The notes under the pieces were generated by a model, which made no database searches, was not told the origin of the DNA, and saw only the letters and a program-made list of their open reading frames with translations. DNA of 64,000 nt from an uncultured Ectothiorhodospiraceae bacterium (GTDB lineage: Bacteria; Pseudomonadota; Gammaproteobacteria; XJ16; Halofilaceae): positions 62,001-126,000 of the forward strand of contig CAJXKK010000001.1 in assembly GCA_913055615.1 (NCBI GenBank). Reading direction: 5' to 3'. The translations under genes were made by a program, and so were the position numbers. Position 1 is the first letter of the stretch. Each line of letters begins with the position of its first letter. Of this stretch, positions 9,264-27,242 are shown piece after piece.

Positions 9264-9737
9264 GGGTTGGCGACTGATCCCTGCATGTTCCTGACAATGA
9301 ACCGATGATACAGGCAGGGTGCGGTCTTATGCACGTCGCGACGGAGCCGGATCGAGCCCGTGCAGGGGATTAGGCCGTGTAAAAACCTTCTCTCGCAGAG
9401 GCGCGGAGGGCGCGGAGAAGGTCAAAATCGGTATCTCGCCAAGACGCGAGGCGCGCCAAGGAAGGGCAAAACGAAAAAGACGTAGGCCGGTTTGGTCCGG
9501 CGCGCATCGCACGACGTTTCACCGCCAGGGCGATCGGCGCGCCGGGCAATGCCGGCAGAAAGCATATCCAATCCCGCAGCGCCTAACCATCCGGAACGCT
9601 CATGGCGGCATTGTCCGGGGCAAGCGCAGTGCACACGTGAACCGCGCTGCGGCCGGACAAAGCCGGCCTACGATTTTTTCTTTCCTTGGCGTGCTCCGCG
9701 TCTTGGCGAGAGGCGCTTTTGACTTTTCGCCTCCACC
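9264..9737. repeat. nested palindromic repeat cluster between dnaE and accA
   Basis: No gene is seen in this 474-bp gap. A unit of type B (CGCAGAG/CGCGGAG three times) lies at 9391-9419, then the linker GTCAAAATCGG, then a type A unit (CGCCAAG-like, three times) at 9434-9463 that runs on into GTAGGCCGG near 9492. The reverse complement follows on the right: CCGGCCTACG near 9663-9672, a T/C-rich stretch and type A at 9681-9712. The two arms align over roughly 50 bp with small gaps. They would form one long stem with a loop of about 170 nt. Confidence 0.8.
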
Positions 9738-12700
9738 CTACCGCTGATACTCGATCTCGACCGCACTCTCGTCGGTGAGCTGCCGCAGGCGGTGGAGCAG
9801 TTCATCGGTCGGATGGATCTGCCAGTCTTCCCCCAGGTGCAGGCGGGCGCTGGCGCTGGGGCCCTGGTATTCGACGGCAATGGGCGTGTGGCCCTCGCGG
9901 AAGGGGCGCAGGGTGTCGCGCAGGTGGTCGATGAAGCCGTTGCCGGCGGCGCTGGCGTTGACGTGCAGGCGCAGGCGGCGGGCGAAGCGTTCACGGGCGT
10001 CGTCGATGCTGTAGATCTCGCGCGCGTTGATCTGGTAGCCGCCGTTGAAATCATCATAGGCCAGCTGGCCCTCCACCACCAGCACGCGGTCGCGCACAAT
10101 CGAGTTGTGCCGGCGCTGCAGCAGTTCCGGGCCGATCTTGACCTCGACGCGCGTGCTCTTGTCGTCGATCGTGGCGAAGCCCATCTTGCCGCTGGACGTG
10201 TTCTTCGTGCGGAAGGCGTTCACCAGGCCGGCGAACACCTCGTTGCGGTCCTCGCCGCGCCGCCGGCCGAGGCTCTCGAGTTTGCCGCACTGGTCAGCCA
10301 GGCGGCCGTTCGTGAAGCGGGTCAGCTCGTCGCTGTAGCGGTCGATCGGATGCCCGGAGAGATACAGGCCCAGCGTCTCCTTCTCGGCCGTGAGGCGGGT
10401 CTCGTCGTCCCAGTCCGGTTCCGGCGGGATGTCCGTGCTGCCCGCCGCCGGCTTGTCACCGCCGCCGAACATGTCGTTCTGGCCGGCCGCGGTGTTGAGG
10501 CGATGCTGCTCAGCGGCGCGCACGGCGTGCGGCAGGCGTTTCTCGATGGTCGCGCGGTTGGGGCCGAGACCGCCCAGCGTGCCCGCCCGGTTGAGCGCCT
10601 CGAGCACCCGCCGGTTCACCTTGCCCGCATCGACGCGCACGCACAGATCGTCGAGATCGCGGAAGGCACCGCCGCGGTCGCGTTCGCGCAGGATGGCCTC
10701 CAGCGCCGATTCGCCCACGCCCTTGATCGCACCGAGCCCGAAGCGCACGCGACTGGCGTCAACGGCCGTGAAGCTGAAGGCCGAGTTGTTGATATCCGGG
10801 GGGATGACGTCCAGCCCGATCGAGGCGCACTCGTCGATCAGCGTGACAACCTTGTCGGTGTTGTCCATGTCGGCGGACAGAACGGCGGCCATGAACTCGG
10901 CCGGGTAATGCGCCTTGAGCCAGGCGGTCTGATAGGACAGCAGCGCGTACGCGGCCGAATGCGACTTGTTGAAGCCATAGCCCGCGAACTTCTCGATCAG
11001 GTCGAAGATGTACTCGGCCGTGGCGGATTCGACGCCGTTGGCGACCGAGCCCTCGATGAAGCCCGAGCGCTGCTTGGCCATCTCCTCGGGCTTTTTCTTG
11101 CCCATGGCGCGGCGCAGCAGGTCGGCGGCGCCGAGCGAGTAGCCCGCCAGCACCTGCGCGATCTGCATCACCTGCTCCTGATACAGGATGACGCCGTAGG
11201 TGGGCTTGAGGATGGCCTCCAGCCACGGGTGCGGGAACTGGACCTCCGCGTGCCCGTGCTTGCGCGCGATGAAGTCGTCGACCATGCCGGACTGCAGCGG
11301 TCCCGGGCGGAACAGCGCCACCAGCGCGACGATCTCCTCGAAGTTGTCCGGCTGCAGGCGCTTGATCAGCTCCTTCATGCCGCGCGATTCGAGCTGGAAG
11401 ACCGCCGTGGTCTGGCAGGCCTTCAGCAGCTTGAAGGCATCGGGGTCGCCGGTCTCGAGCTGGTCCATGCTGACGGGCTCGCGGCCCTCGCCGCGCAGGC
11501 GCTTGTTGATCGCCTGGACCGCGCGGTCGATGATCGTGAGCGTGCGCAGGCCGAGGAAGTCGAACTTCACCAGGCCGATTTTCTCGACGTCGTCCTTGTC
11601 GAACTGGGTGACCAGGCCCTGCCCGCCCGGCTCGCAGTACAGCGGCGCGAAGTCGGTCAGCGCCGAGGGCGCGATGACGACGCCGCCGGCATGCTTGCCG
11701 GCGTTGCGCGCCAGGCCCTCGAGCTTCATGCCGAGATCGATCAGCGCGCGGACGTCGTCCTCGTCGTCGTAGACCTGTTTGAGGTCCTCCGACTCCTTGA
11801 GGGCCCGCTCGAGCGTCATGCCGACCTCGAACGGCACCAGCTTGGCGATGCGGTCGACCATGCCGTAGGGATGGCCGAGCACGCGGCCGACGTCGCGGAT
11901 CACCGCGCGCGCCGCCATGGAGCCGTAGGTGATGATCTGCGAGACCTTGTCGCTGCCGTACTTCTGCGCGACGTAGTCGATCACGCGGTCGCGCCCGTCC
12001 ATGCAGAAGTCGACGTCGAAGTCGGGCAGCGAGACGCGCTCCGGGTTGAGGAATCGCTCGAACAGGAGGTCGTAACGCAGCGGGTCGAGGTCGGTAATCC
12101 CCATCGCATAGGCCACCAGCGAACCCGCGCCGGAACCGCGACCGGGGCCGACCGGCACGCCGTTGTTCTTCGCCCAGATGATGAAGTCGGCGACGATCAG
12201 GAAGTAGCCGGGGAAGCCCATCGAGTTGATGACGCCCAGTTCCCGCTCCAGGCGCTCGACATAGGGCCTGCGGAAGTCCTCGTCCGCGGCCCTCGCCGCG
12301 CCGTAGAGCTGGTGCAGGCGCTCATCTAGCCCCTGATACGCCACCTCGCTCAGATACGTGTCGACCGTGTGCTCGGCCGGGACAGGGAAATCGGGCAGAT
12401 AGGACTCACCGAGCGTGATCCGCAGGTTGCAGCGCCGCGCGATCTCGACCGAGTTCTCCAGCGCCTCGGGTATATCGCCGAAGAGCTCGGTCATCTCCTC
12501 TTCGCTGCGCAGGTACTGCTGGTCCGAGTAGCGCTTGGGGCGGCGCGGGTCCGTCAGCACGCGGCTGTCGTGGATACACACGCGCGCCTCGTGGGCGTCG
12601 AAGTCCTCCGCCGCCAGGTAGCGCACGTCGTTGGTCGCCACGACCGGGCATTCCATGGTGCTGGCGAGTTCCAGCGCGCCGTCGATCCAGGCCTCTTCAT

Positions 12701-13226
12701 GCTCACGGCCAGTACGATGGATCTCCAGGTAGAAGCGACCGGGGAAGCGCGCCATCCAGTCGGCCAGTGACTCCAGCGTGCGCTCGCGGCGCCCCGCCAG
12801 CCAATTGCGCGCGACCTCGCCGGTGCGACCGCCGGAGAGCGCGATCAGGCCATCGGTGGCGCCATCGAGCCAGGACCGCTCGATGGTCGGCTCGCCGTCG
12901 CTCTGCCCCTCGAGATACGACCGTGACACCAGCCGGATCAGGTTGCCGTAACCGACATCGTCCTGGACCAGCAGAGTCAGCGGCGTCGCCGGCTCACCCC
13001 GGGCCTCGCCGCGCAGCAGCACATCGCAGCCGATGATCGGCTTCACGCCGGCGGCGATGGCGGCGCTGTAGAACTTGACCATGGCGAACAGGTTGCTCTG
13101 GTCCGTGAGCGCGACCGCGGGCATCCCGCGCGCCTTCAGCGTCTCCATGAGCTCGGGGATGCGCACGGTGCCGTCGACCAGCGAGTAGTCGGTATGCAGG
13201 CGCAGATGGACGAAGCTCGGTTTCAT
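9738..13226 (-). CDS. dnaE: DNA polymerase III subunit alpha
   Basis: Catalytic subunit of the replicative polymerase. The 1162 residues match the usual DnaE1 length. The N-terminal PHP domain starts FVHLRLHTDYSLVDGTVRI. The palm domain carries the catalytic Asp pair in SLPDFDVDFCMDGRDRVIDYV. GPGRGSGAGSLVAYAMGITDLDPLRYDLLFERFLNPER precedes it, and the fingers contain ILYQEQVMQIAQVLAGYSLGAADLLRRAMGKKK. A C-terminal OB-fold and tail (MGFATIDDKSTRVEVKIGPE) follow. It is the only polymerase gene in the window. It is flanked on both sides by nested palindromic repeats. Confidence 0.97.
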   Translation of the reverse strand: MKPSFVHLRLHTDYSLVDGTVRIPELMETLKARGMPAVALTDQSNLFAMVKFYSAAIAAGVKPIIGCDVLLRGEARGEPATPLTLLVQDDVGYGNLIRLVSRSYLEGQSDGEPTIERSWLDGATDGLIALSGGRTGEVARNWLAGRRERTLESLADWMARFPGRFYLEIHRTGREHEEAWIDGALELASTMECPVVATNDVRYLAAEDFDAHEARVCIHDSRVLTDPRRPKRYSDQQYLRSEEEMTELFGDIPEALENSVEIARRCNLRITLGESYLPDFPVPAEHTVDTYLSEVAYQGLDERLHQLYGAARAADEDFRRPYVERLERELGVINSMGFPGYFLIVADFIIWAKNNGVPVGPGRGSGAGSLVAYAMGITDLDPLRYDLLFERFLNPERVSLPDFDVDFCMDGRDRVIDYVAQKYGSDKVSQIITYGSMAARAVIRDVGRVLGHPYGMVDRIAKLVPFEVGMTLERALKESEDLKQVYDDEDDVRALIDLGMKLEGLARNAGKHAGGVVIAPSALTDFAPLYCEPGGQGLVTQFDKDDVEKIGLVKFDFLGLRTLTIIDRAVQAINKRLRGEGREPVSMDQLETGDPDAFKLLKACQTTAVFQLESRGMKELIKRLQPDNFEEIVALVALFRPGPLQSGMVDDFIARKHGHAEVQFPHPWLEAILKPTYGVILYQEQVMQIAQVLAGYSLGAADLLRRAMGKKKPEEMAKQRSGFIEGSVANGVESATAEYIFDLIEKFAGYGFNKSHSAAYALLSYQTAWLKAHYPAEFMAAVLSADMDNTDKVVTLIDECASIGLDVIPPDINNSAFSFTAVDASRVRFGLGAIKGVGESALEAILRERDRGGAFRDLDDLCVRVDAGKVNRRVLEALNRAGTLGGLGPNRATIEKRLPHAVRAAEQHRLNTAAGQNDMFGGGDKPAAGSTDIPPEPDWDDETRLTAEKETLGLYLSGHPIDRYSDELTRFTNGRLADQCGKLESLGRRRGEDRNEVFAGLVNAFRTKNTSSGKMGFATIDDKSTRVEVKIGPELLQRRHNSIVRDRVLVVEGQLAYDDFNGGYQINAREIYSIDDARERFARRLRLHVNASAAGNGFIDHLRDTLRPFREGHTPIAVEYQGPSASARLHLGEDWQIHPTDELLHRLRQLTDESAVEIEYQR

Positions 13227-13691
13227 GGGTGGTGTCGCGGGTCCCGTTTGGTTTGTTGCGTTTCCGGTTCGGTCATTGTCTCTCGCAGGGGCGCTGGTCG
13301 TATTGAGAGAAAGTCAAAATCGTTTTCTCGCGGAGGCGCGGAGTTCGCGGAGGAAAGTCAAAATCGGTTTCTCGCCAAGGCGCCAAGCGCGCCAAGGGAA
13401 ATCAACAAACGGCTATAAATCATTGATTATTAGATCCTGTGGCTTTAGTGCGCCTGGGTGCCGGCATTGCCCTGCGCGGTTTGTGCTTTCGCCAGAATCC
13501 AGCCTCGGCTCGCGCAGGGCAAAGCCGGCCTACGTCCAGTGAAACACTCTCTCACCAATAGACCCCAACAACCTGAACACCCACGCCTTTTCACGTATTC
13601 CGCCCTTTTTGGCGCACTTGGCGCCTTGGCGAGAAACCGATTTTGACTTCCTCTCAGCGCTCTCTGCGCCTCTGCGAGAGAACGCCTTTTC
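13227..13691. repeat. nested palindromic repeat cluster between rnhB and dnaE
   Basis: No gene is seen in this 465-bp gap. The left half has a partial type B unit near 13279, a full type B unit (13326-13357), the linker GTCAAAATCGG and a type A unit (13368-13402). The right half is the mirror image: type A at 13602-13636, the linker in reverse, then type B at 13650-13680. The composite arms are about 75 bp each and are separated by about 200 bp. Near 13509-13525 lies one copy of the CCGGCCTAC motif seen in other gaps. The dnaE promoter must lie here but is not recognisable. Confidence 0.85.
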
Positions 13692-14312
13692 TCACGATTC
13701 CACCCCATAGCCATCCAAAGCCAAACGCCCCTGCTCGGCCGCCGCGCGGACCGGGGCGAAGCTGTGGCGGTGGGCCGGGCATGGGCCGAGGCGCGTGAGC
13801 GCTTCCAGGTGGACACGGGTGCCGTAGCCCTTGTGGGCCGCGAAGCCGTAGCCCGGGTATTCGTCCTCCATCGCGACCAGCAACCGGTCGCGGTCGACTT
13901 TGGCCAGGATCGAGGCCGCCGAGATCGCGGGGTCGAGGGCGTCGCCGCCGACGAGCGCCTCCGCCGGCACCCCGAAATCGGGAGCGCGGTTACCGTCGAC
14001 GCGCACCGCCTGCGCCCGGATCGGGAGCGCCGCCACCGCGCGGACCATGGCCGCAAGACTCGCCTGCAGGATATTGATCCGGTCGATCTCGGCCGCCTCG
14101 ACCCGGGCGATCGCGAACGCCAGTGCCTCGGCCCGGATGCGCTCATCGAAGCGCTCGCGGCGCTTCGCGGAGAGCTTCTTCGAGTCCGTGAGGCCCGCGA
14201 TCGGGCGCGCCGAATCCAGCACCACGGCGGCCGCGACGACGGGGCCGGCGAGCGGTCCGCGACCGGCCTCGTCGACGCCGGCTACGTGGTCGGTGTCCGC
14301 GGCTATCGCCAT
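13692..14312 (-). CDS. rnhB: ribonuclease HII
   Basis: Endonuclease that cuts RNA of RNA-DNA hybrids and single misincorporated ribonucleotides. The 206-residue protein starts [30 protein letters not shown]. The [12 protein letters not shown] motif holds the first catalytic Asp/Glu pair. [15 protein letters not shown] and the [16 protein letters not shown] motif with further acidic residues follow, and the C-terminal [13 protein letters not shown] is typical. It is normally followed by dnaE and preceded by lpxB. Here lpxB lies on the other strand about 6.3 kb away because the intervening block is inverted. Confidence 0.95.
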
Positions 14313-14443: not shown

Positions 14444-15394
14444 ATGAAGCTGTCCACCGCCGTGATCGGCGCCGGTTACCTCGGCCGGTTCCACGCGCAG
14501 AAATACGCCGCCCTCGATGCCTGTGAGCTGATTGCGGTCGTCGACCGCGATCCGGAGGCCGCGCAGCGCAGCGCCGAGCCGGCAGGTGCCCGTGCCCTGA
14601 CCGACTATCGTGAACTGCTGGGGCAGGTCGATGCCGTGAGCATTGCGGCACCGACCTCGTTGCACTACGAGATCGCGCGCGATTTCCTGGCGGCCGGTGC
14701 CCATGTGCTGGTCGAGAAGCCGATCACCGTGACCGTCGCGCAGGCGGACGAACTGGTCGAGCTGGCCCGTGAGCGCGGTCTTGTGCTCCAGGTCGGCCAT
14801 CTCGAACGGTTCAACCCGGCGCTGCGCGCGGCGGACGACATCCTGGACCAGCCCCGCTTTATCGAGTCCCACCGGCTTGCGCCGTTCAATCCGCGCGGCA
14901 CGGATGTGGACGTCGTGCTGGACCTGATGATCCACGACATCGACATCATCCTCGATATCGTGAACAGCCCGGTAGCGCGGATCGACGCCAGCGGCACCCA
15001 GGTGCTCACCGATGCCACGGACATCGCCAACGCCCGCGTCGTGTTCGACAACGGCTGTGTGGCCAACGTGACCGCGAGCCGTGTCTCGGCGAAGAAGGAA
15101 CGCCGCATGCGGTTCTTCCAGCACAACTGCTACCTCGCGGTGGATTTCGGCGAACGCCGGCTGACCGTCCATCGCAAGGGCGAGCAGGAGATGTATCCGG
15201 GCATCCCGGAGCTGGTTTCGGAGGACCAGTCATTCGAGGCGGCCGACGCCATCCGCGATGAGATCGAGTCTTTCCTCGACTGCATCGCGAGCGGGGAATC
15301 GCCACTGGTTTCCGGCGAGGACGGCCGCCGCGCGCTCTCGACCGCGATCGAGATCAGTCAACTCTTCGGCGTGGACGGAGGCAGCACGGTATGA
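14444..15394 (+). CDS. gnnA: Gfo/Idh/MocA oxidoreductase, probable UDP-GlcNAc 3-dehydrogenase GnnA
   Basis: Probable NAD-dependent oxidation of the 3-hydroxyl of UDP-GlcNAc, giving the 3-keto sugar used by GnnB. The 316 residues show the Rossmann loop GAGYLG (9-14), the EKP signature (91-93), GHLERFNPA (118-126) and DLMIHDIDI (160-168) with the family catalytic His/Asp. GnnA and GnnB were characterised in Acidithiobacillus ferrooxidans, where they lie between lpxA and lpxB. Here the gene opens a plus-strand block that ends in gnnB and lpxB. The start [11 protein letters not shown] at 14444 places the Rossmann fold at the N terminus. The family assignment is firm. The exact substrate is inferred from context. 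Confidence 0.7.
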
Positions 15395-18300
15395 GTGATG
15401 CAGGCATGTGGAATTCCGGCAATCACGACTCCGGGACATGGGACTTCTGGGTCGATCGGGGCGGCACCTTCACCGACATCGTCGCCCGCCGGCCCGACGG
15501 CGAGCTCGTCAGCCACAAGCTGCTGTCGGACAACCCCGAGCAGTACGACGACGCCGCCCTCGCCGGCATCCGCCACCTGCTCGGTGTCGCCCCGGACGCC
15601 CCGATGCCGGGCGAGCGCATCAGCCGCGTCAAGATGGGCACGACCGTAGCCACCAATGCCCTGCTCGAGCATAAGGGTGAGCCGACCGCGCTGGTGACCA
15701 CGCGCGGCTTCCGCGACGCCCTGCGCATCGGCTACCAGGCGCGGCCGGACATCTTCGCGCTGGACGTCCGCCTGCCGCAGATGCTCTACACCACGGCCGT
15801 CGAGGTCGACGAGCGCCTCGCCGCCGATGGCGACGTACTGCGCCCGCTCGATGAGGCCGACGCCCGCCGCGTGCTCGAGGAGCTGCGCAGTGCAGGCTAC
15901 GACAGCGTCGCGATCGCGTTTCTGCACGGCTACAGCTACACGGAGCACGAACACCACGTGGCGGCCATCGCCCGCGAAATCGGCTTCAGTCAGGTCTCGG
16001 CCAGTTTCGAGGTCAGCCCGACCATGAAGCTGGTGTCCCGTGGCGACACGACCGTGGTCGACGCCTACCTCTCACCCGTGCTGCGCCGCTATGTCGACCG
16101 CGTGGCAGCGGATCTCGGCAACACCCGCCTGATGTTCATGCAGAGCAACGGCGGCCTGGCCGAGGCGCACGCCTTCCGCGGCAAGGACGCGATCCTGTCC
16201 GGCCCCGCCGGTGGCGTGGTCGGCATGGTGCGCACCGGGATCGCCGCCGGCCACGACCGGCTGATCGGCTTCGACATGGGCGGCACCTCGACCGATGTCA
16301 GTCACTACGCCGGCGATTACGAGCGCACCTTCGAGAGCACGGTCGCCGGCTGCCGCCTACGCGCGCCCATGATGCGCATCCACACCGTCGCCGCCGGCGG
16401 CGGCTCGATCGTGCACTTCGACGGCACCCGTTATCGGGTCGGACCGGACTCGGCCGGCGCGGATCCGGGTCCCGCGTGCTACCGCAAGGGCGGTCCGCTC
16501 ACGGTCACCGACTGCAACGTGATGCTCGGCCGCCTGCGACCCGAACTGTTCCCGCGCGTATTCGGGCCGAACGCCGACCAGGCGCTGGACACCGACATCG
16601 TCCGCGAGAAATTCGCCGCCCTCGCCGAGGAAATCCATCAAGCGACCTGCGACGAGCGCACGCCCGAAGCGGTGGCCGAGGGCTTCCTGCGCATCGCGGT
16701 CGAGAACATGGCCAACGCGATCAAGGAGATCTCGGTCGCGCGCGGCTACGACGTCTCCGGCTACACGCTCAGCTGCTTCGGCGGCGCGGGTGGCCAGCAC
16801 GCCTGCCTGGTCGCCGACCTGCTGGGCATTGACCGCGTGCTGCTGCACCCCCATGCCGGCGTGCTGTCGGCGTTCGGTATCGGTCTCGCCGACGTGCGCT
16901 GCGTGCACGAGCGGGCATTCGAACAGCCGCTTGAACAGGCGGCGGAGGATCCGCTGAAACGGCTGCTGGACGAGCTGGCCTCGCGCGCCGTCATCGACCT
17001 CGAATCCCAGGGGGTGCGCAGCGACGCCATTGCGACCCGGCGGCGCGCGCACATCCGCTATTCGGGCTCGGATACGGCACTGCTGATCGACGCTGCCGAC
17101 GCCGTGACCATGCGCGAGGAATTCGAGACCCTGCACGGACAGCGTTACGGCTTCGTCTCTCCGGGCAAGACCGTGATCGTCGAGACCGCCCAGGTCGAGG
17201 GTATCGGCACCAGCGACACGCCGGACACGGTCCCGGTGCCGACGCTCAAGGGTGGCGATGTGCGTGAACATGGGCGCTTCGAGACCGTGATGGGCGGTGA
17301 CCGTCACGACACACCGTTCCTGGAACGCGCGGCGCTGGGCGGCGGCGATCCGGTCGATGGGCCGGCGGTGGTGGTCGAGCCGAACGGCACGACCGTCGTC
17401 GAGCCCGGCTGGCGGGCAATGGTCACCGAGCGCGGCGACCTTGAGCTCGAACGCGTGGCGGCGCGCGCCGGTGCCGGCGGCGTTTCCACCGCGGCCGATC
17501 CGGTCATGCTCGAGGTCTTCAACAACCTGTTCATGTCGATCGCCGAGCAGATGGGCGCCGTGCTTGAGACCACTGCCTATTCGGTCAATATCAAGGAACG
17601 GCTGGACTTCTCCTGCGCCGTGTTCGACGGCGACGGCGAACTGATCGCCAACGCACCGCATATGCCGATCCACCTCGGCTCCATGGGCGCGAGCGTGCAG
17701 CGCATCCACGCCGCCAATGCCGGGCAAATGCAGCCAGGCGACGTCTACATGCTGAACGACCCGTACAACGGCGGCACCCACCTGCCCGACATCACCGTGG
17801 TCAAACCGGTGTTCGACGACGCCGGCGAGCGCATCCTGTTCTACACCGCCAGCCGCGGACACCACGCCGACGTCGGCGGCATCACCCCCGGCTCGATGCC
17901 GCCCGACAGCAAGGTGCTGGAAGACGAGGGCGTGCTGATCGACAACATGCGCATCGTCGCCGACGGCAAGCTGCTGGAGAACGACATCCGCGCGCTGTTC
18001 GAGGGCGCCGTCCACCCCGCGCGCAACGTCGACAACAATATCGCCGACCTGCAGGCGCAGATCGCCGCCTGCGAAAAAGGCGTGCAGGAACTCGGCCGCA
18101 TGATCGACCAGTTCGGCCTGGAGGTGGTCGAGGCCTACATGCAGCACGTCCAGGACAACGCCGAGGAACAGGTGCGCCGGGTCATCGACGCGCTCGACGA
18201 CGGCGAATTCGCCTACGAGATGGACGACGGCTCGATCATCCGGGTGGCGGTCACGGTCGATCGTGCCAACCGCGGCGCCCGCGTCGATTTCACCGGTACC

Positions 18301-19026
18301 AGCGACCAGCATCCGACCAACTTCAACGCCCCGGCGGCGGTCGGCCGCGCGGCCGTGCTCTATGTCTTCCGCTGCATGGTCGCCGACACGATCCCGCTCA
18401 ACGGCGGCTGCCTCAAGCCGCTGGATATCGTCATCCCCGAGGGCACGATGCTGAACCCGCGGCCGCCGGCGGCGGTCGTGGCCGGCAACGTCGAGACCTC
18501 GCAGTGCGTGGTGGATACGCTGTTCGGCGCGCTGGAGGTGGTCGCCGCCTCCCAGGGGACGATGAACAACTTTACCTGGGGCAACGAAAACCACCAGTAC
18601 TACGAGACCCTCTGCGGCGGCGTCGGCGCCGGCCCGGACTTCGACGGCGCGAGCGCCGTGCATTCGCATATGACGAACTCGCGCCTCACGGACCCCGAGG
18701 TCCTCGAATGGCGCTTCCCGGTCCGCCTGGAGGACTTCCACATCCGCACCGGCTCCGGCGGCCGCGGCCGCCACAACGGCGGCGACGGGACCTATCGCCG
18801 CGTACGCTTCCTGCAACCCATGACCGCCTCGATACTCTCGGGCCACCGGCGCATACCGCCCTACGGCCTCAAAGGTGGCGAACCGGGCGCCTGCGGCAGC
18901 AACACGGTCGAGCGCACCGACGGCAACACCGAAACCCTGGGAAGCCGCGACAGCACCGAGATGGACGCAGGCGATGTCTTCATCATCGAGACACCTGGCG
19001 GTGGAGGCTACGGCACGCCGGAGTAA
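15391..19026 (+). CDS. fused hydantoinase A/B, probable ATP-dependent 5-oxoprolinase
   Basis: Probably opens 5-oxo-L-proline to glutamate with ATP. The 1211-residue protein fuses HyuA-like (about 12-695) and HyuB-like (about 702-1205) domains, the arrangement of eukaryotic and some bacterial 5-oxoprolinases. HyuA motifs are [19 protein letters not shown] near the N terminus, [10 protein letters not shown] and [14 protein letters not shown] (actin-like ATPase). HyuB begins [18 protein letters not shown] and contains [13 protein letters not shown] and [13 protein letters not shown]. It ends in [11 protein letters not shown], typical of the family. Its ATG overlaps the gnnA stop as ATGA, so it is coupled to gnnA. 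That position within a lipid A gene set is unexpected. Other hydantoin or N-methylhydantoin substrates cannot be excluded. Confidence 0.88.
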
Positions 19027-19526
19027 CTGGCGGGGCCGTTTATGAACCACGAATGAACCACGAATGGGGCTGTGCAAAGTGAACGGCTTCGGGAGCTTCG
19101 CTGTTCGGCAGTGGAAGCTGTTCCGTGTTCAAGAACCACAGATAGACACAGATGAACACAGATAAAATCACCTCGATGCCGACTGCGAGGCCGAAGGCTG
19201 AATAAGCGACACAACGCCCCGATTCGTTCGAGATGGCCGATTTCGCCTTTATCTGTGTCCATCTGTGTTCATCTGTGGTTCAAAACTCGACGGGTGATGC
19301 TGTAAAGGAACCTCAGCGTAGCTCCCCAAGGCTGTGGTTCCCCCAAGACCATTCGTGTTCATTGCTCGGCACGTCCTTGCGCCTCGCCCCGTCGGGGCTG
19401 GCGCGAAGATTCGCTCCCGGCGAAGCTTTCGTGGTTCTGATTTTTTCCAGAAGCGGCAAGGGAGGCGGATGACAGCCCCCGCACGATGCCGGACAATGCG
19501 GACTTCTCCCGAGACGATGTGAGCCG
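19027..19526. repeat. nested CACAGAT / CCACGAAT palindromic repeats
   Basis: No gene is seen in this 500-bp gap. The outer units are CCACGAAT-type: two copies in tandem at 19044-19066 and one inverted copy at 19349-19364. The inner units are CACAGAT repeated three times with a 10-bp period at 19134-19167, and the exact inverted counterpart at 19248-19285. The nesting (outer D, inner C, inner C', outer D') matches the B-A-A'-B' nesting around dnaE. The element separates the hydantoinase from gnnB, so gnnB may have its own promoter in the last 150 bp. I could not identify one. Confidence 0.85.
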
Positions 19527-20636
19527 ATGAGCGATTCCCCGATTCCGATGGTCGACCTGAAGGCGCAGTACGCGGCGCTTCGGGGCGAGCTTGAGCCCGC
19601 GATGGCGCAGGCGATGGCGGCGACGCAGTATATTCTCGGGCCGAACGTGCAGGCGTTCGAGCGCGAAGCGGCCGAGTACCTCGGCGTGCGCCACGCGCTC
19701 GGGTGCGCGTCCGGCACCGATGCCCTGCATCTGGCGCTCGCAGGCCTGGGGATCGGGCCCGGTGACGAGGTGATCACGACGCCGTTCACCTTCATCGCCA
19801 CCGCCGAGGCGATCCGCTACGTTGATGCGACGCCGGTGTTCGTCGACGTCGACCCGCAGACCTTCAACCTCGACCCGGTGGCGGTCGAGCGGGCGATCAC
19901 GGAACGCACGCGGGCTATCATGCCGGTGCACCTGTTCGGCCAGCCCGCCGACATCGATACGCTCAATCGCATGGCCTGCGACCGCGGGCTTCTGGTCCTG
20001 GAAGACTGCGCGCAGTCATTTGGTGCGACCGTGGACGGACGCCAGACGGGGTCGCTCGGCGCCGCCGGGGCGTTCAGTTTCTTCCCGAGCAAAAACCTTG
20101 GCGGCTTCGGCGACGGCGGTCTGGTTACGACGCATGATGACGCGGCGGCGGAGCAGATCCGCTCGCTGCGCAATCACGGTCAGACCAAGCGCTATCACCA
20201 CCCGCAGATCGGCTACAACAGCCGGCTCGATGAGCTGCAGGCCGTCGTGCTGCGGCACAAGCTGCCGCATATCGACCAGTACAATACCGAGCGCCGCCGC
20301 GTCGCGGACCGCTACGACGCACGCCTGGCCGGCCTGCCGCTGCAGACACCACTGCGCCGCGACGGCGCGACGCACGTATTCCACCAGTACACCGCCCTCA
20401 GCGACCACCGCGACACGATCATGCAGGCGTTGAAGGACGAATCCATCGCCAGCGCGATCTACTACCCCGTGCCGCTGCACCGCCAGCCGGCCTTCGCGGA
20501 CGCCGCGGTGCCGGCGAGCCTGCCGGTCGCGGAATCGCTCGCGGAGCGCTGCTTTTCGCTGCCGGTTTATCCGGAGCTCACGGATGCCATGGTCGACCGG
20601 ATCTGCGGGGTGATCCGCGAGGCCGTCGGTGGCTGA
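19527..20636 (+). CDS. gnnB: DegT/DnrJ/EryC1 aminotransferase, probable UDP-3-keto-GlcNAc transaminase GnnB
   Basis: Probable PLP-dependent transfer of an amino group from glutamate to the 3-keto product of GnnA, forming UDP-GlcNAc3N for LpxA. The 369 residues include the substrate/PLP loop GCASGTDALHLAL (59-71), VLEDCAQSFGA (157-167) with the PLP-contacting Asp, and the Schiff-base Lys189 in FFPSKNLGGFGDGG. Length and motifs also fit WbpE-like O-antigen aminotransferases. The 8-nt overlap with lpxB favours the lipid A role. The start MSDSPIPMVDLKAQY is standard for the family. Confidence 0.72.
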   Translation: MSDSPIPMVDLKAQYAALRGELEPAMAQAMAATQYILGPNVQAFEREAAEYLGVRHALGCASGTDALHLALAGLGIGPGDEVITTPFTFIATAEAIRYVDATPVFVDVDPQTFNLDPVAVERAITERTRAIMPVHLFGQPADIDTLNRMACDRGLLVLEDCAQSFGATVDGRQTGSLGAAGAFSFFPSKNLGGFGDGGLVTTHDDAAAEQIRSLRNHGQTKRYHHPQIGYNSRLDELQAVVLRHKLPHIDQYNTERRRVADRYDARLAGLPLQTPLRRDGATHVFHQYTALSDHRDTIMQALKDESIASAIYYPVPLHRQPAFADAAVPASLPVAESLAERCFSLPVYPELTDAMVDRICGVIREAVGG

Positions 20637-21807
20637 GCGCCCGCGCCTGATGATCTCGGCCGGAGAGGCCTCCGGCGACCACCACGCCGCCCGCTTCGTG
20701 GAGGCCCTGCGCCGCCGCGGCAGCGACCCCGAACTGATGGGCATGGGCGGGCCCCACCTGCAGGCCGCCGGGATGGACGTCGTGGTCGACTGCCGCGATC
20801 TCGCCATCATCGGCATCGTCGAGGTCCTGATCCACTGGCGCCGGATCATGCGCGAACTGGAGAAACTGCGGGCGCGTCTGCGCGAGCACCGCCCCGATCT
20901 GCTGATCCTGGTCGACTACCCCGAATTCAATCTCAAGCTCGCTGAGACGGCACGCTCGTTGGGTATCCCCGTGCTGTTCTACGTCAGCCCGCAGGTCTGG
21001 GCCTGGCGCTCACACCGGGTCAAGCGCATTGGCCGGCTGGTCGACATGATGGCGGTGCTGTTCCCCTTCGAGGTGGATTTCTACGAGCGTGCGGGCGTGC
21101 CGGTCCGCTACGTCGGTCACCCGCTGGTCGACGAGATCCACCCGAGCGTGACGCACGACGAGGCCCGGGTCGAGTTCGACATCGAACCGGGCCGGCCCGT
21201 GGTCGGGCTCATGCCCGGCTCCCGTCGCGGCGAGATCCAGCGGCTGCTGCCCACCATGATCGCGGCCGCGGAACAACTGCAACGGGACCGCGACCCGATC
21301 CGCTTCGTGCTGCCACTCGCCGGCACGCTGGATGCGGAGACGGTACGCCCGCAGCTGGAACAGGCGGAGGTGGATATCCGACTGATCGAGGGCGGGCGTG
21401 CGTACGATGTTGTACCGCTCTGCGACAGCGTTATCACCGCATCCGGCACCGCGACACTCGAGATCGCCTTGATGGGCGTGCCGATGGCGGTGATCTACCG
21501 CGTGAACTGGCTCACCTGGCAGATCATGCACCGACTGATCACGATCGACGATATCGCGCTCGTGAATATCGTGGCCCAACGGAGGGTCGTGCAGGAATTC
21601 GTGCAGCGCGACGCACGACCCGACGCCATCGCTGGCGAGACCGCGCGTATCCTCGATGATGAGAGTTACCGCCGGCAGATGGTCTCTTCGCTCGCCACCG
21701 TCGCCAACCGCATGGGCGAAGGCGACGGCCCCGGCCGCGTCGCCGCCCTCATCGAGGAGATGCTGGCCTCACCGCCTGAAAGAAAGTCGGTGTCACGGGC
21801 TGAATGA
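20629..21807 (+). CDS. lpxB: lipid-A-disaccharide synthase LpxB
   Basis: Glycosyltransferase joining UDP-2,3-diacylglucosamine (or the diamino analogue) to lipid X to make the beta-1,6 disaccharide of lipid A. The 392-residue protein starts at GTG 20629, overlapping gnnB by 8 nt. Motifs include LMISAGEASGDHHAARFVEAL, the VDYPEFNLKLA segment, FYVSPQVWAWRSHRVKRI and VGLMPGSRRGEIQRLLP. It is convergent with lpxA (301-bp gap), whereas in most relatives lpxA and lpxB are adjacent and codirectional. Confidence 0.95.
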   Translation: MAERPRLMISAGEASGDHHAARFVEALRRRGSDPELMGMGGPHLQAAGMDVVVDCRDLAIIGIVEVLIHWRRIMRELEKLRARLREHRPDLLILVDYPEFNLKLAETARSLGIPVLFYVSPQVWAWRSHRVKRIGRLVDMMAVLFPFEVDFYERAGVPVRYVGHPLVDEIHPSVTHDEARVEFDIEPGRPVVGLMPGSRRGEIQRLLPTMIAAAEQLQRDRDPIRFVLPLAGTLDAETVRPQLEQAEVDIRLIEGGRAYDVVPLCDSVITASGTATLEIALMGVPMAVIYRVNWLTWQIMHRLITIDDIALVNIVAQRRVVQEFVQRDARPDAIAGETARILDDESYRRQMVSSLATVANRMGEGDGPGRVAALIEEMLASPPERKSVSRAE

Positions 21808-22108
21808 ACCGGTCCCGGAGTGATCGTGTCGCATCAAAGGGGATAGGCCTGCCAGGGTTCTCGCCAAGGCGCCAAGCGCGCCGAGCGGCGCGAAGGAAAG
21901 ATCAGGATATTCAATCACTGCCTTTTCTTTGCGTGCCTTGGCGCCCTTCGCGTCTTGGCGAGAACCTTACGGGATCTGATTCAGCGATGCGCCCGAGCCC
22001 GTACCACGGGATGCCGGAAGCGCCTGATCCCTCCGACACGGAAAACGCGCGCGTTCGCCTTCGTCGAACACGCGCCTACGCGCAATTGATCCCGCGGAGT
22101 CGAGCGGG
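21808..22108. repeat. type A palindrome between convergent lpxB and lpxA
   Basis: This 301-bp gap has no gene. A type A unit (CGCCAAG-like, with one extra GCGCGAAGG unit) at 21858-21900 is followed by its inverted counterpart at 21921-21966, separated by only about 20 nt. The result is a nearly continuous hairpin about 45 bp long. It lies between the 3' ends of lpxB and lpxA and could terminate or protect both transcripts. It is also close to one end of the proposed inversion of the gnnA-lpxB block. Nothing notable is seen in 21967-22108. Confidence 0.8.
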
Positions 22109-22879
22109 TCAGCGGACGATGCCGCGCTGGCCTTCTTCGATGAAATCGCGCAGGGACGCGACCTCGGCGTGATCGTTTGCCAGCCGGTCGACCTCGGCGC
22201 GGGCTTCCTCCGAGTTGCGGCGCGACTTGATCATCACCATGTAGGTACGGTGCAGCGCCTTGACCACAGCCGGGTCGAACCCGCGGCGTTTGAGGCCGTT
22301 TTTGTTGATACCGTACGGCCTCGCGTGGTTGCCGGCGACGGTGACGAAGGGCGGGATATCGCGGGTAACGACCGTCCCCAGTCCGGTGAAGCTGTGTGGG
22401 CCGATACGGCAGAACTGATGGACGCAGGTGAACCCGCCAAGGATCGCCCAGTCGCCGACCTCCACGTGCCCGGCCAGCGATGCCGCATTGGCGAAGATCG
22501 CGCGGCTGCCGACCTCGCAGTCATGCGCGACGTGGGTATAGGCCATGAACAGGTTATCGTTACCGATCCGCGTGACGCCGCCGCCGTCGGTGGTGCCACG
22601 ATTGAAGGTGACGTACTCGCGGATGGTATTCCGATCCCCGACTTCCAGGCGGGTCGGCTCGCCATCGTACTTGAGGTCCTGCGGCGCCTCGCCAATGGTC
22701 GAGAACGAGAAGATCACGTTGTCGCGTCCGAGGCGCGTCGGCCCGCGGATCACCACATGGGAGCCCACCCGCGTGCCCGAGCCGATTTCCACTTCCGGCC
22801 CAATGACACAGAACGGGCCGATTTCCACATCCTCGGCGACACGCGCGCCGGGATCGATGATCGCCTGCGAATGGATCAC
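22109..22879 (-). CDS. lpxA: acyl-ACP-UDP-N-acetylglucosamine O-acyltransferase LpxA
   Basis: First step of lipid A synthesis: transfers a 3-hydroxyacyl chain from ACP to position 3 of the UDP sugar. If GnnA and GnnB act as proposed, it would form an amide on UDP-GlcNAc3N. The 256-residue left-handed beta-helix starts at GTG 22879 ([14 protein letters not shown]), which overlaps the fabZ stop as GTGA. The catalytic His119 lies in [10 protein letters not shown]. The C-terminal helical region has [19 protein letters not shown]. Hexapeptide repeats fill residues 5-165. It is the last gene of the operon that begins at rpsB. Confidence 0.95.
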
Positions 22880-23325
22880 GAGCTGACTTCCCGCACGGCC
22901 CCCATTAATTCCGCCACACAGGCGACCTCTCCGTCTACGCTTGCCTCGCAATAAAATTTCCAGAGGCCGCGCGAGGAGCGCATGAGTTCGATGTTCAGAT
23001 CGAGGCGATCCCCCGGCTGGACCTTCCGCTTGAAGCGACAATTATCCACGCCGACGAACAGATAGAGCTTGTTGTCCTCCGGCATGACACCCATCGTGCG
23101 GAAAGCGAGCAGACCGGTCGCCTGCGCAAGCGCTTCGATGATAAGGACGCCGGGAAATACCGGATGGGCCGGGAAATGCCCCGGGAAAAAGGGCTCGTTG
23201 TAGCTTACGTTCTTGATCGCCCGGATGCGCTCGCCCAGCTCGCACTCGATCACACGGTCCACCAGCAGAAACGGATAGCGGTGTGGCAGGTACTTGAGCA
23301 CCTCGTGGATATTCATCTCACTCAC
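22876..23325 (-). CDS. fabZ: 3-hydroxyacyl-ACP dehydratase FabZ
   Basis: Hot-dog-fold dehydratase of fatty acid elongation. It competes with LpxA and LpxD for 3-hydroxyacyl-ACP. The 149-residue protein contains [13 protein letters not shown], the catalytic His50 in [12 protein letters not shown] and Glu64 in [12 protein letters not shown]. The start is taken as GTG at 23325 ([10 protein letters not shown]). A GGAGGG Shine-Dalgarno lies 7 nt upstream of that GTG, whereas it is 16 nt from the in-frame ATG at 23316. Family members also carry a short Met-x-x-Met leader. It overlaps lpxD by 8 nt and lpxA by 4 nt. Confidence 0.94.
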
Positions 23326-24367
23326 GGCGTATCCCTCCGGACTTATGTGCGCTGCTGTCCTTTTCGAGTGCATTGACACGCCGTGCGAGACGGTCAAGCT
23401 GATGGAAACGGGCCGCGTTGCGGCGCCATTCCCGATGGGGTTCGAGCGGAACGCCAGATGACCAGGTGCCGGCCCTTGTAATCGAATTGCGCACCATCGA
23501 CCGCGCGGTGATATGGACATCATCGACGATCTCGAGATGCCCCAGAATGCCCGCCGCCCCACCGATCGTGCAGCGTGCGCCGATTACCGCACTGCCCGCA
23601 ACCCCGACACAACCGGCTATCGCCGTACCGGCACCGATACGGACGTTATGAGCGATCTGGATCTGATTATCGAGGATGACACCGTTAGCGATCACCGTGT
23701 CGTCCGAGGTGCCACGATCGATCGTCGTGTTCGCCCCGATCGCGACATCGTCGCCGATCACGACGCGCCCGATCTGGGGGATTCGCACCCATGCTTCGCC
23801 GTCACGTGCAAAGCCGAATCCATCGCTGCCGATCACCGCACCGGGCTGAATGATACAGCGCGCCCCCAGAATACAGCGATCACCGACCACCGTACGTGCA
23901 CCAATCCGGGTATCCGGGCCGATCCGTACATTCGAACCGATCACACAGGCAGGGCCGATCATCGCACCGCCCTCGATCCGTGCACCGGTCTCGACGATCG
24001 CACCGGTCGCGACATGGGCCTGCTCATCGACGAAAGCATCGGGCGCGACGGTCGCCCCCGTCGCAATGCCCGGCTCGACCGCTGGCAGGGGATGGAGCAG
24101 CTGCGATGCGCGTGCGAAATGCAGATACGGCTCATCGCTCACGATCGACACGCACGGCGCCGCTTCAACATCGTCCGCACAGACAATCACGGCACCGGCC
24201 CTGGTTGCCGCGAGCCGTTCGACGGCCGTTCCCGGGACAAAGAACGTGAGTGCGTCGGGGCCCGCCGACTCGAGCGAAGCCGCCCGCGCCAGCGCGCACG
24301 TACCATCGCCCCTGTACTCGAGACCGAGTCGCTCAGCGAGCTTATGGATCGTCCACGGCACCGTCAC
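23318..24367 (-). CDS. lpxD: UDP-3-O-acylglucosamine N-acyltransferase LpxD
   Basis: Adds the second 3-hydroxyacyl chain at the 2-amino group in lipid A synthesis. The 349 residues show the N-terminal uridine-binding domain (1-100). A long hexapeptide-repeat beta-helix follows (about 100-300), with [11 protein letters not shown] (180-190) and the catalytic His240 in [10 protein letters not shown]. The C-terminal helix contains [24 protein letters not shown]. Six nt separate it from skp upstream, and it overlaps fabZ downstream. Confidence 0.96.
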
Positions 24368-24373
24368 GGGCCT

Positions 24374-24892
24374 TTACTGGGAATTACCGTCGTAGTCCGC
24401 TTCCATCCGCTCGAGGACGCGCTCGGTGAGATTCACCGCATCACTCGCGTACAACGCGCCCTGGCCGACCACGAGATCGTATCCCTCTTCCTCGGCCAGT
24501 GCCTCGACCGCCTCCATCACCGACTGGCGCACGCCCTTGAATGCCTTGTTGCGCTCGATGTTGAGGTCCTCACGAAAGCCCTCCTGCATACGCTGAATCT
24601 CGCGTTTCATCTGGTTCAGACGATCCTCGGCCTCGGCCCTTTCCTCTTCCGACATCACGAGGCCGTCTTTCTGCAGCTCCTCCTGCAGTTGCTGGAATTC
24701 CTGCTGTTTCTGCTGGAGTTGCTGCTGCTTCGGGCCGAACTCCGTCTCGAGTTCGCTGCTCGCCGCCTTGGCCTGGGGGGAGTTGTCGATCAGATACGGC
24801 ACATCGACATAGCCGATCTTCGACTCGGCCAGGGCGAAGCCAGGCAACGTCATCGCCGCCATCAACAGCAGACAGGTTACAATTTTGCGCAC
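24374..24892 (-). CDS. skp: periplasmic chaperone Skp/OmpH
   Basis: Trimeric periplasmic holdase that carries unfolded outer-membrane proteins to the Bam complex. The 172-residue precursor has a signal peptide (MRKIVTCLLLMAAMTLPGFALA, about 1-22), then SKIGYVDVPYLIDNSPQAKAASSELE. A long Gln/Glu-rich coiled coil follows (about 50-110) that forms the tentacles, with a C-terminal VMEAVEALAEEEGYDLVVGQGALYAS strand region. It lies between bamA and lpxD, the conserved position, with a 40-nt gap after bamA. Confidence 0.94.
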   Translation of the reverse strand: MRKIVTCLLLMAAMTLPGFALAESKIGYVDVPYLIDNSPQAKAASSELETEFGPKQQQLQQKQQEFQQLQEELQKDGLVMSEEERAEAEDRLNQMKREIQRMQEGFREDLNIERNKAFKGVRQSVMEAVEALAEEEGYDLVVGQGALYASDAVNLTERVLERMEADYDGNSQ

Positions 24893-24932
24893 GGCTCAAC
24901 TCCGCGTGGTTGTCCGATTCCACGAATCGGTC

Positions 24933-27242
24933 TCAGAAAAGGGTACCGATCGTAAACTGAAAACGCTCGGTATCGTCGCCGGGCTCATCGATAATGGGTT
25001 CGGCCAGACTGATCGAAAGCGGGCCGACGGGGGATCGCCAATTAAACGCGACGCCGGCCGAGGCTCGCAGGCTACCGGTCTCAAAGTCCCGCGGATCCTC
25101 GAAGACGTTACCGAAATCCACGAAGGTGCTCAAGCGCGTCTGGCCGGACTCCTCGATGAACGGCGGCGGGAACACGAGCTCGAAGGAACCGGTGGCGACA
25201 AAATCGCCGCCCTTCGGGTCCCGATCGGACGCCTCCTCAAACGTATAGCGGGGTCCGAGGCTGTTGCCGGCAAAACCGCGCACGGAGCGGATACCGCCCG
25301 CGAAATAGCGCCGGTAGAAAGGCAGATCCTCATCGTCGCCGTACCCGGCACCATATCCCAGCCGGGCGCTGGTGGACAGCACCAGATCTTCGGTTACCGG
25401 CAGATAGTTCTCGAAACGGTATCCGAGCTTGTAATATTCGACATCGCTGCCAGGCAAGGCCATATCGAGCGACAGGCTTTGCAGGGTACCGCGTTCCGCG
25501 AAAATCGTGCGATTCCGCGAGTCACGTGTGTAGCCCACGCTGCCATTGAGCCCGGCGAACTCGTTGCCGCGTTCATCGATGAAATCCTCGATCGGCTGCG
25601 GCGTCGAGTCCGTCGTGCGGATACGGATTCCGTCAAAACCAAGGCCATACCGTAACGTGTCGAATTCTGACAGTGGCACACCAAAGCGGAACCCGATATC
25701 GGCGGAATCCGAGAAGTAGTCCGTCGTATTCAGGATGTCGTTCGGGTCACTTTCTCTATAAATGAAACGCAGCGTCCGGCTGACGCCCCAATCCGTGTAA
25801 TAAGGGTCGGTGTACCGGATCGACACGGTACGGTCAATCTCGGTTGTATCGATATTCACGTCCAGGTCCTGGCCGGTACCCAGCACGTTGCGCTCGCTGA
25901 CGCCGATATTCAGGCCGAGTCCAGTGCCACTCGAGAAGCCGGCCCCCAATTGGAGCGAACCGGTCTGGCGCTCCGTAATCTGATAATTGACGTCCACTTT
26001 GCCGCTCTCGCCCGGCACCGGCCGCGTATCCATTTCGACACGCTCGACCGAATCGAGCCGCTGCAGGCGTACGCGCGAACGATCCAGATCAGCAGGCGAG
26101 TACAGCCCACCTTCCATCTGCCGCAGTTCACGCCGGTAGACGCGGTCCTCGGTGGTGGTATGGCCACTGAATGTCACCCGCCTCACGTACACCCGATTGC
26201 CGGGATCCACGAAGAATTCGAGATCGACCTTCTGTTCTGCCTCATCGATACTGGGTGATACGTTCACATTCGCGAACGCATAACCCGCCTGCGCCAGGCG
26301 ATCGGATATGGCCGTACGACTGGCCGTAAGAGATTTACGTGAGAACAGGTCGCCATCTCCGAGTTCAACCTGCTCAAGCAGTTCCTCCTCATCCACCGGA
26401 AGATCGCCCGAGACCGACACGTCACGAACCGTGTATTTCTCGCCCTCCTCCACGTTGATCGTGATATAGATATCTTTCTTGTCAGGGGTGATCGTCACCT
26501 GGCTCGAGGTGACCGAGAACCGGATGTACCCGCGATCCAGATAATACGAACGGATCGCCTCCAGATCACCCTCGAGTTTGGCCCGCGAGTATTCATCCGC
26601 CGAGGAAAGGAGTGCCCAGGCGCTCGGAATACCCGATTCCATCTCGTCCTTGAGGGTCTCGTCACTGAAAACATCATTGCCGAGAATCCGGATCTGGCGG
26701 ATCTTCGCGACCCGCCCCTCTCTCAGGTTCACGTCGACCGCGACCCGATTGCGTTCCAGCTCGCGAACCTCCGTGGACATCTGCATGCCATACTTGCCCT
26801 GGCTGTACAGGACGCGCTGCAGTTCCTGTTCGGTGCGGTCGAGCATCGCGCGCTCGAAGATCCGTCCCGGCGCCAGGCCGATATCCGCCAGCGACTCGCG
26901 AAGCTGTTCCTCCTCCATGCTGTAGTCGCCTTCGATATTCAGCTCACCGATGGCGGGCCTCTCGGTGACGTCGACCACGAGCACCTGCCCATCGCGTGCA
27001 ATGCGCACATCCTCGAACAGCCCGGTGTCATACAGGGCACGGACCGCGCGCCCGGTATCGTCCGGTCCGAACGTCTCGCCGGTGCGCACCGGCAGATAGT
27101 TCAGAATCGTACCGTCCTCGATCCGTTCTGCGCTGCGGATCTCGATGTCCTCGACCACGAACGGTTCAAAGGCATGGACCGGGGTGGCGACGGCAATAGT
27201 AAGCACGAGCGCAACCAGCGCGCCGATCATTGATAAACGCAT
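24933..27242 (-). CDS. bamA: outer membrane protein assembly factor BamA
   Basis: Essential Omp85-family insertase of beta-barrel outer-membrane proteins. The 769 residues have a signal peptide (about 1-24, ending in VHA before FEPFVVEDIEI) and five POTRA repeats (about 25-420). The 16-strand barrel contains the lid-loop motif SVRGFAGNSLGP and ends in Phe (FTIGTLF), the expected outer-membrane C-terminal signal. It lies 4 nt after rseP and before skp. Confidence 0.97.
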   Translation of the reverse strand: MRLSMIGALVALVLTIAVATPVHAFEPFVVEDIEIRSAERIEDGTILNYLPVRTGETFGPDDTGRAVRALYDTGLFEDVRIARDGQVLVVDVTERPAIGELNIEGDYSMEEEQLRESLADIGLAPGRIFERAMLDRTEQELQRVLYSQGKYGMQMSTEVRELERNRVAVDVNLREGRVAKIRQIRILGNDVFSDETLKDEMESGIPSAWALLSSADEYSRAKLEGDLEAIRSYYLDRGYIRFSVTSSQVTITPDKKDIYITINVEEGEKYTVRDVSVSGDLPVDEEELLEQVELGDGDLFSRKSLTASRTAISDRLAQAGYAFANVNVSPSIDEAEQKVDLEFFVDPGNRVYVRRVTFSGHTTTEDRVYRRELRQMEGGLYSPADLDRSRVRLQRLDSVERVEMDTRPVPGESGKVDVNYQITERQTGSLQLGAGFSSGTGLGLNIGVSERNVLGTGQDLDVNIDTTEIDRTVSIRYTDPYYTDWGVSRTLRFIYRESDPNDILNTTDYFSDSADIGFRFGVPLSEFDTLRYGLGFDGIRIRTTDSTPQPIEDFIDERGNEFAGLNGSVGYTRDSRNRTIFAERGTLQSLSLDMALPGSDVEYYKLGYRFENYLPVTEDLVLSTSARLGYGAGYGDDEDLPFYRRYFAGGIRSVRGFAGNSLGPRYTFEEASDRDPKGGDFVATGSFELVFPPPFIEESGQTRLSTFVDFGNVFEDPRDFETGSLRASAGVAFNWRSPVGPLSISLAEPIIDEPGDDTERFQFTIGTLF

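Follow-up and report, generated by a model that had tools for sequence, protein, structure and literature searches.

The gnnA-gnnB gene pair is said to have been described in Acidithiobacillus ferrooxidans by Sweet et al. in 2004 (doi 10.1074/jbc.M400596200, cited in PMC8036547 and PMC5644692). Among other bacteria that carry gnnAB or make 2,3-diamino-2,3-dideoxyglucose (GlcN3N), Capnocytophaga canimorsus (PMC3342949) and Campylobacter jejuni (PMC7956469) possess a hybrid lipid A of GlcN3N and glucosamine (GlcN), and full GlcN3N backbones are found in Phyllobacterium (PMC5644692) and Legionella (PMC7956469). Loss of gnnA/gnnB in C. jejuni results in higher TLR4 activation and higher sensitivity to antimicrobial peptides (PMC8036547). 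Here we analyzed a 64,000-nucleotide stretch of DNA (the window; contig CAJXKK010000001.1, positions 62,001 to 126,000) from the genome of an uncultured Ectothiorhodospiraceae bacterium (2.998 Mb in 87 contigs, 100% complete), in which homologs of gnnA and gnnB accompany lpxB. From comparisons of sequence and gene order, we assign a probability of about 0.92 to the reading that both genes are orthologous to the A. ferrooxidans pair and serve a GlcN3N pathway for lipid A. The three genes concerned are:

14444-15394, + strand: gnnA, ATG start, 316 amino acids; predicted NAD-dependent UDP-N-acetylglucosamine (UDP-GlcNAc) 3-dehydrogenase (Gfo/Idh/MocA)
19527-20636, + strand: gnnB, 369 amino acids; predicted pyridoxal phosphate (PLP)-dependent UDP-3-keto-GlcNAc aminotransferase (DegT)
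20629-21807, + strand: lpxB, lipid A disaccharide synthase, GTG start, TIGR00215 above cut-off

Open reading frame (ORF) calling placed gnnA, gnnB and lpxB on the + strand, and GnnA and GnnB matched Pfam PF01408 (GFO_IDH_MocA, E=1.8e-32) and PF01041 (DegT, E=4.6e-125), respectively. ORF calls and domain searches thus agree with the preliminary description of this DNA, which had placed a Gfo/Idh oxidoreductase and a DegT aminotransferase on the strand and in the block of lpxB. The 8-nucleotide overlap of gnnB and lpxB that it reported lies at 20629-20636, provided that lpxB starts at GTG.

The best solved structure for GnnA was 7BVJ/7BVK (E=3.1e-69; next structure 4.8e-20), and the window protein shares 43% identity with the 7BVJ sequence. 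A tree of 117 proteins separated 107 GnnA sequences, including those of the window and 7BVJ, from 10 other Gfo/Idh proteins with a support of 99.7 (Shimodaira-Hasegawa-like approximate likelihood ratio test). K92 (in EKP), D160 and H164 (the histidine of DLMIHD) are invariant across 132 GnnA sequences, 7BVJ among them. The model NF040723 (archaeal UDP-GlcNAc 3-dehydrogenase) gave GnnA 212.9 bits, below its curated cut-off of 450; it covers archaeal enzymes and is no criterion for bacterial GnnA. The host genome encodes no other GnnA-like protein.

For GnnB, the best structures were DegT sugar aminotransferases including WbpE, which scored nearly as high as the best of them, so similarity alone cannot assign this protein. 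The same closeness, together with the identity of the enzyme superfamilies, speaks for a different use of the pair, in which the diamino sugar made by GnnA and GnnB would go into O-antigen or capsule, and not into lipid A, as Pseudomonas WbpB/WbpE use the same C3 chemistry for the diacetamido uronic acid of O-antigen. However, the Pseudomonas enzymes act after a UDP-sugar 6-dehydrogenase (WbpA), and a search for this family (PF00984) gave no match in the host genome and matches in 13 of 14 control genomes. One LpxA, one LpxB and one LpxC are encoded there, along with three late acyltransferases of the LpxL family. Since the 6-dehydrogenase is absent and these lpx genes are single, a WbpB/WbpE-type route would lack its starting reaction, leaving the lpx genes as the natural users of the product. 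The trees that the preliminary description had proposed as a check point the same way: besides the separation of GnnA from other Gfo/Idh proteins and its grouping with 7BVJ, WbpE joined nine other DegT proteins unlinked to gnnA (support 98), whereas window GnnB stood among the gnnA-linked ones. GnnB is also the only strong DegT protein of the host genome (E=3.6e-125; next 2.6e-10), its PLP lysine, K189, aligns with the lysine of WbpE, and the association with lpxB is kept in many families. We therefore rejected a role in O-antigen synthesis, which we regard as extremely improbable.

Several points weigh against the assignment of the pair to lipid A. The trees come from quick maximum-likelihood runs and have long outgroup branches, and a single clade of gnnA-linked GnnB, while not rejected (p=0.58), was not recovered by the free tree search. 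The compared sequences comprised neither GnnB nor LpxA of A. ferrooxidans, and the residues of the window LpxA, considered below, do not appear to settle a preference for UDP-GlcNAc3N. Furthermore, we take 7BVJ to be the A. ferrooxidans GnnA, its record being named only 'Oxidoreductase, NAD-binding'. The latter assumption is supported by the nearest relatives of 7BVJ (68, 62 and 57% identity), because the collinear order lpxA-gnnA-gnnB-lpxB-rnhB in their genomes fits the arrangement given for A. ferrooxidans in the preliminary description. Overall, the orthology of window GnnA to A. ferrooxidans GnnA is well supported by these comparisons.

In the proposed pathway, GnnA would oxidize the 3-hydroxyl of UDP-GlcNAc with NAD+ as cofactor, and GnnB would transaminate the 3-ketone using L-glutamate, yielding UDP-GlcNAc3N. 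The single LpxA would then put the 3-hydroxyacyl chain on the 3-amine, as an amide, and not on the 3-hydroxyl, as an ester. From there, LpxC, LpxD and LpxB of the gnn-associated type would lead the 3-amide product into lipid A, whose backbone would be expected to consist of GlcN3N at least in part. What the sequences show is orthology, gene neighborhood, single copies and conserved catalytic residues; from these we infer the reactions and how much of the backbone is GlcN3N.

The preliminary description had gone further and predicted lipid A with four amide-linked chains. While the identity of GnnA/GnnB and their use for lipid A are strongly supported, this structure, which would require GlcN3N in both sugars, does not follow, as gnnAB carriers with hybrid backbones are known. 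We hold four amide-linked chains to be slightly favored as the dominant form, with the selectivity of LpxA deciding. E. coli LpxA uses both UDP-GlcNAc and UDP-GlcNAc3N. If the window LpxA likewise accepts both, or if another step selects, a hybrid or mixed lipid A would result, with the 3-amide in one sugar or in a fraction of the molecules; its chances fall somewhat short of even. The window LpxA falls into the main LpxA group of the tree, outside a separate clade of second LpxA copies, and keeps the catalytic and substrate residues H122, H125, H144, Q161, N198 and R204. At positions 75, 116 and 200 (E. coli numbering) it reads L/L/N, compared to L/L/E in E. coli and L/Y/V in Leptospira; LpxA of gnnA-negative genomes reads mostly K/W/E, and the second copies carry L or I, then Y, F or M, then mostly V or I, resembling Leptospira LpxA at 75 and 116. 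The window LpxA is thus shifted away from the gnnA-negative pattern, yet does not match that of Leptospira. Selectivity of the Leptospira enzyme presumably lies in a backbone carbonyl turn at Q68/Q73, which is not readable from sequence; Q73 is present in the window LpxA, as in every LpxA compared.

A hybrid product is favored by L75 and L116, shared with E. coli, by the difference from Leptospira at 116 and 200 (L and N versus Y and V), and by the hybrid backbones of known gnnAB carriers (PMC3342949; PMC7956469). On the other hand, a signature of three features (not K75, not W116, not E200) reached its full score of 3 in 13 of 21 single-LpxA gnnA-positive cases versus 6 of 38 gnnA-negative ones and groups the window LpxA with most of the former, at positions chosen after the data had been seen. 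Taken singly, residues 75, 116 and 200 were associated with gnnA presence in the sample (Fisher p 0.005, 0.0007 and 0.00009), but the positions were picked post hoc, the association is confounded with descent, and well-supported branches held only one independent pair. The structure 4r36 (L, L, I), which we take to be LpxA of a Bacteroides whose lipid A has GlcN only, fits the pattern too. For these reasons we rejected the three residues as a predictor of selectivity and did not use them as proof. Elsewhere in the protein, L173 replaces G173 of E. coli, suggesting that the primary chains may be shorter than C14; the counterpart in Pseudomonas aeruginosa LpxA, M169, has been named an acyl chain ruler (PMC7072397).

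The surroundings of the three genes comprise:

15391-19026, + strand: oplAH, 1211 amino acids, fused HyuA-HyuB hydantoinase/5-oxoprolinase
19027-19526: oplAH-gnnB spacer, 500 nucleotides, with an inverted repeat and the promoter-like site of gnnB inside
19469-19497, + strand: promoter-like site ATGACA-17-GACAAT, upstream of gnnB-lpxB
22876-22109, - strand: lpxA, TIGR01852 above cut-off, convergent with lpxB
22876-27242, - strand: bamA-skp-lpxD-fabZ, the usual operon 5' of lpxA
13692-14312, - strand: rnhB, divergent from gnnA, with dnaE and accA next

The preliminary description had passed over oplAH, the 500-nucleotide spacer and the opposite strand of lpxA. Instead of a single collinear lpxA-gnnA-gnnB-lpxB run, the window has lpxA convergent on lpxB and rnhB divergent from gnnA. 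Intergenic hairpin repeats of one family (CTCGCCAAGGCGCCAAGCGCGCCAAGG) occupy 9374-9711, 13309-13681 and 21842-21966, standing at the accA/dnaE, dnaE/rnhB and lpxB/lpxA junctions. A recent inversion through inverted copies of these repeats (13355-13649 and 21856-21966) was considered as the cause of this arrangement and rejected, the flipped layout without oplAH being widespread.

At an identity of at least 43%, gnnA was present in 35 of 76 sampled genomes (counting the host), and the next matches were clearly set apart (E 1e-69 versus 1e-27). With the 7BVJ sequence as query and a threshold of E<=1e-40, matches came from 127 of the 369 genomes in the class. The gnnA-(gnnB)-lpxB neighborhood recurs in Gammaproteobacteria and in Geobacter-type bacteria, the latter having lpxA directly 5' of gnnA. 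In the locus survey the commonest pattern was a divergent rnhB, then gnnA-gnnB-lpxB, with lpxA convergent (21 loci). The flipped layout is therefore no local accident, and since dozens of other genomes have the same neighbors around gnnA, the block lies far beyond chance.

LpxB proteins encoded beside gnn genes required 3 label changes on the tree (mean of 33 when labels were shuffled), and their grouping in one clade was not rejected (p=0.47). By this comparison, gnn-associated LpxB nearly forms a lineage of its own, and gnnA-gnnB-lpxB appears to be inherited as a unit. This ancient association with a distinct LpxB adds to the support for a use of the pair in lipid A. One genome (G053) carries a gnn-type lpxB convergent on lpxA and has no gnnA, which looks like gnn loss. 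In five loci from Legionella and Coxiellaceae, lpxB comes directly after gnnA and gnnB is missing; in three genomes that likewise miss gnnB there (G006, G067 and G071), the nearest DegT protein encoded elsewhere groups with WbpE.

Of the 35 genomes with gnnA, 13 encode a second LpxA copy; the 41 genomes without gnnA gave none. The clade of these second copies includes those at loci L198, L199, L200, L132, L284 and L288, and several copies lie directly beside gnnA. In Simiduia aestuariiviva (L272, 16279-17824), two adjacent lpxA genes lie by fabZ, and the nearby gnnA-gnnB-lpxB runs on the other strand. Because gnnA-gnnB-lpxB resembles an old cassette that has its own LpxB lineage and second LpxA copies are confined to gnnA-positive genomes of the 76 sampled, one might speculate that there is a dedicated GlcN3N branch, its LpxB (and in some genomes LpxA) tuned to the 3-amide substrate, which in many bacteria runs beside the ordinary branch and so gives a controlled hybrid lipid A. 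In the genus of the window, with its single LpxA and single gnn-type LpxB, the GlcN3N branch would have replaced the ordinary one. We consider this scheme rather unlikely.

The product of oplAH matches the Pfam families Hydantoinase_A/B and is related to N-methylhydantoinase/5-oxoprolinase structures (PDB 7hk5, E=8e-148; 6yra, '5-oxoprolinase', E=3e-69). Its first 4 nucleotides are shared with the end of gnnA, the gene is present in all three members of the genus (the window genome, G001 and G002), and a ratio of nonsynonymous to synonymous substitution rates (dN/dS) of 0.09 against G002 indicates purifying selection. These three observations could be taken to mean that oplAH functions in the pathway, converting 5-oxoproline to glutamate as the amino donor for GnnB. 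Yet in the locus survey only this genus had oplAH separating gnnA from gnnB (the G001 locus itself being split over two contigs), close homologs in other genomes are unlinked to gnnA, and glutamate is abundant anyway. Moreover, gnnB seems to have a promoter of its own. A search for the promoter-like ATGACA-17-GACAAT gave 1 site versus 0.2 expected, and by eye the same two hexamers, equally spaced, can be seen just 5' of gnnB in G001 and G002; as they are kept in all three genus members, gnnB-lpxB is probably transcribed from its own promoter. Between oplAH and gnnB the three genomes differ, the spacer reaching about 2.4 kb in G001, a distance that also speaks against a pathway role for oplAH. 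We judge such a role highly unlikely; most simply, oplAH would be an insertion riding with gnnA, probably leaving gnnA-oplAH and gnnB-lpxB as two separate transcripts. In the window, the spacer contains an inverted repeat with 34-nucleotide arms (19133-19166 and 19248-19281) of ACAGATGAACACAGATAAA-type units, a region (19133-19281) not conserved in G002. The G001 spacer (L106, about 11386-13796) appears, read from the sequence by eye, to hold an antisense GGDEF/EAL-like gene.

The assignment of gnnA-gnnB to lipid A predicts a base-stable, amide-rich lipid A in an uncharacterized gammaproteobacterial genus, and the matches to 7BVJ show the trait to be common in the class. Such a trait matters for envelope robustness and immune recognition, given the effects of gnnA/gnnB loss in C. 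jejuni (PMC8036547). The LpxB and second-LpxA patterns offer a way, open to testing, to predict from a genome whether its lipid A is a hybrid or all GlcN3N.

Compared to known systems, the locus shares with A. ferrooxidans an orthologous GnnA and the order gnnA, gnnB, lpxB with lpxA nearby. It differs from the A. ferrooxidans type in orientation, the block converging with lpxA and diverging from rnhB where the closest relatives of 7BVJ have all these genes collinear, and in the insertion of oplAH. The likeness to C. canimorsus and C. jejuni is that GnnA/GnnB supply GlcN3N for lipid A (PMC3342949, PMC7956469, PMC8036547), although C. canimorsus has two lpxA genes and the window genome one. Closest in layout are the loci of Ectothiorhodospira, Thioalkalivibrio, Simiduia and a Halothiobacillaceae metagenome-assembled genome, which match the window from the divergent rnhB to the convergent lpxA-fabZ-lpxD-bamA but, unlike the window, have no oplAH between gnnA and gnnB. 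The gnnA-gnnB-lpxB genes described here are thus a new member of a known and common system, and the genus-specific insertion of oplAH is the sole local novelty.

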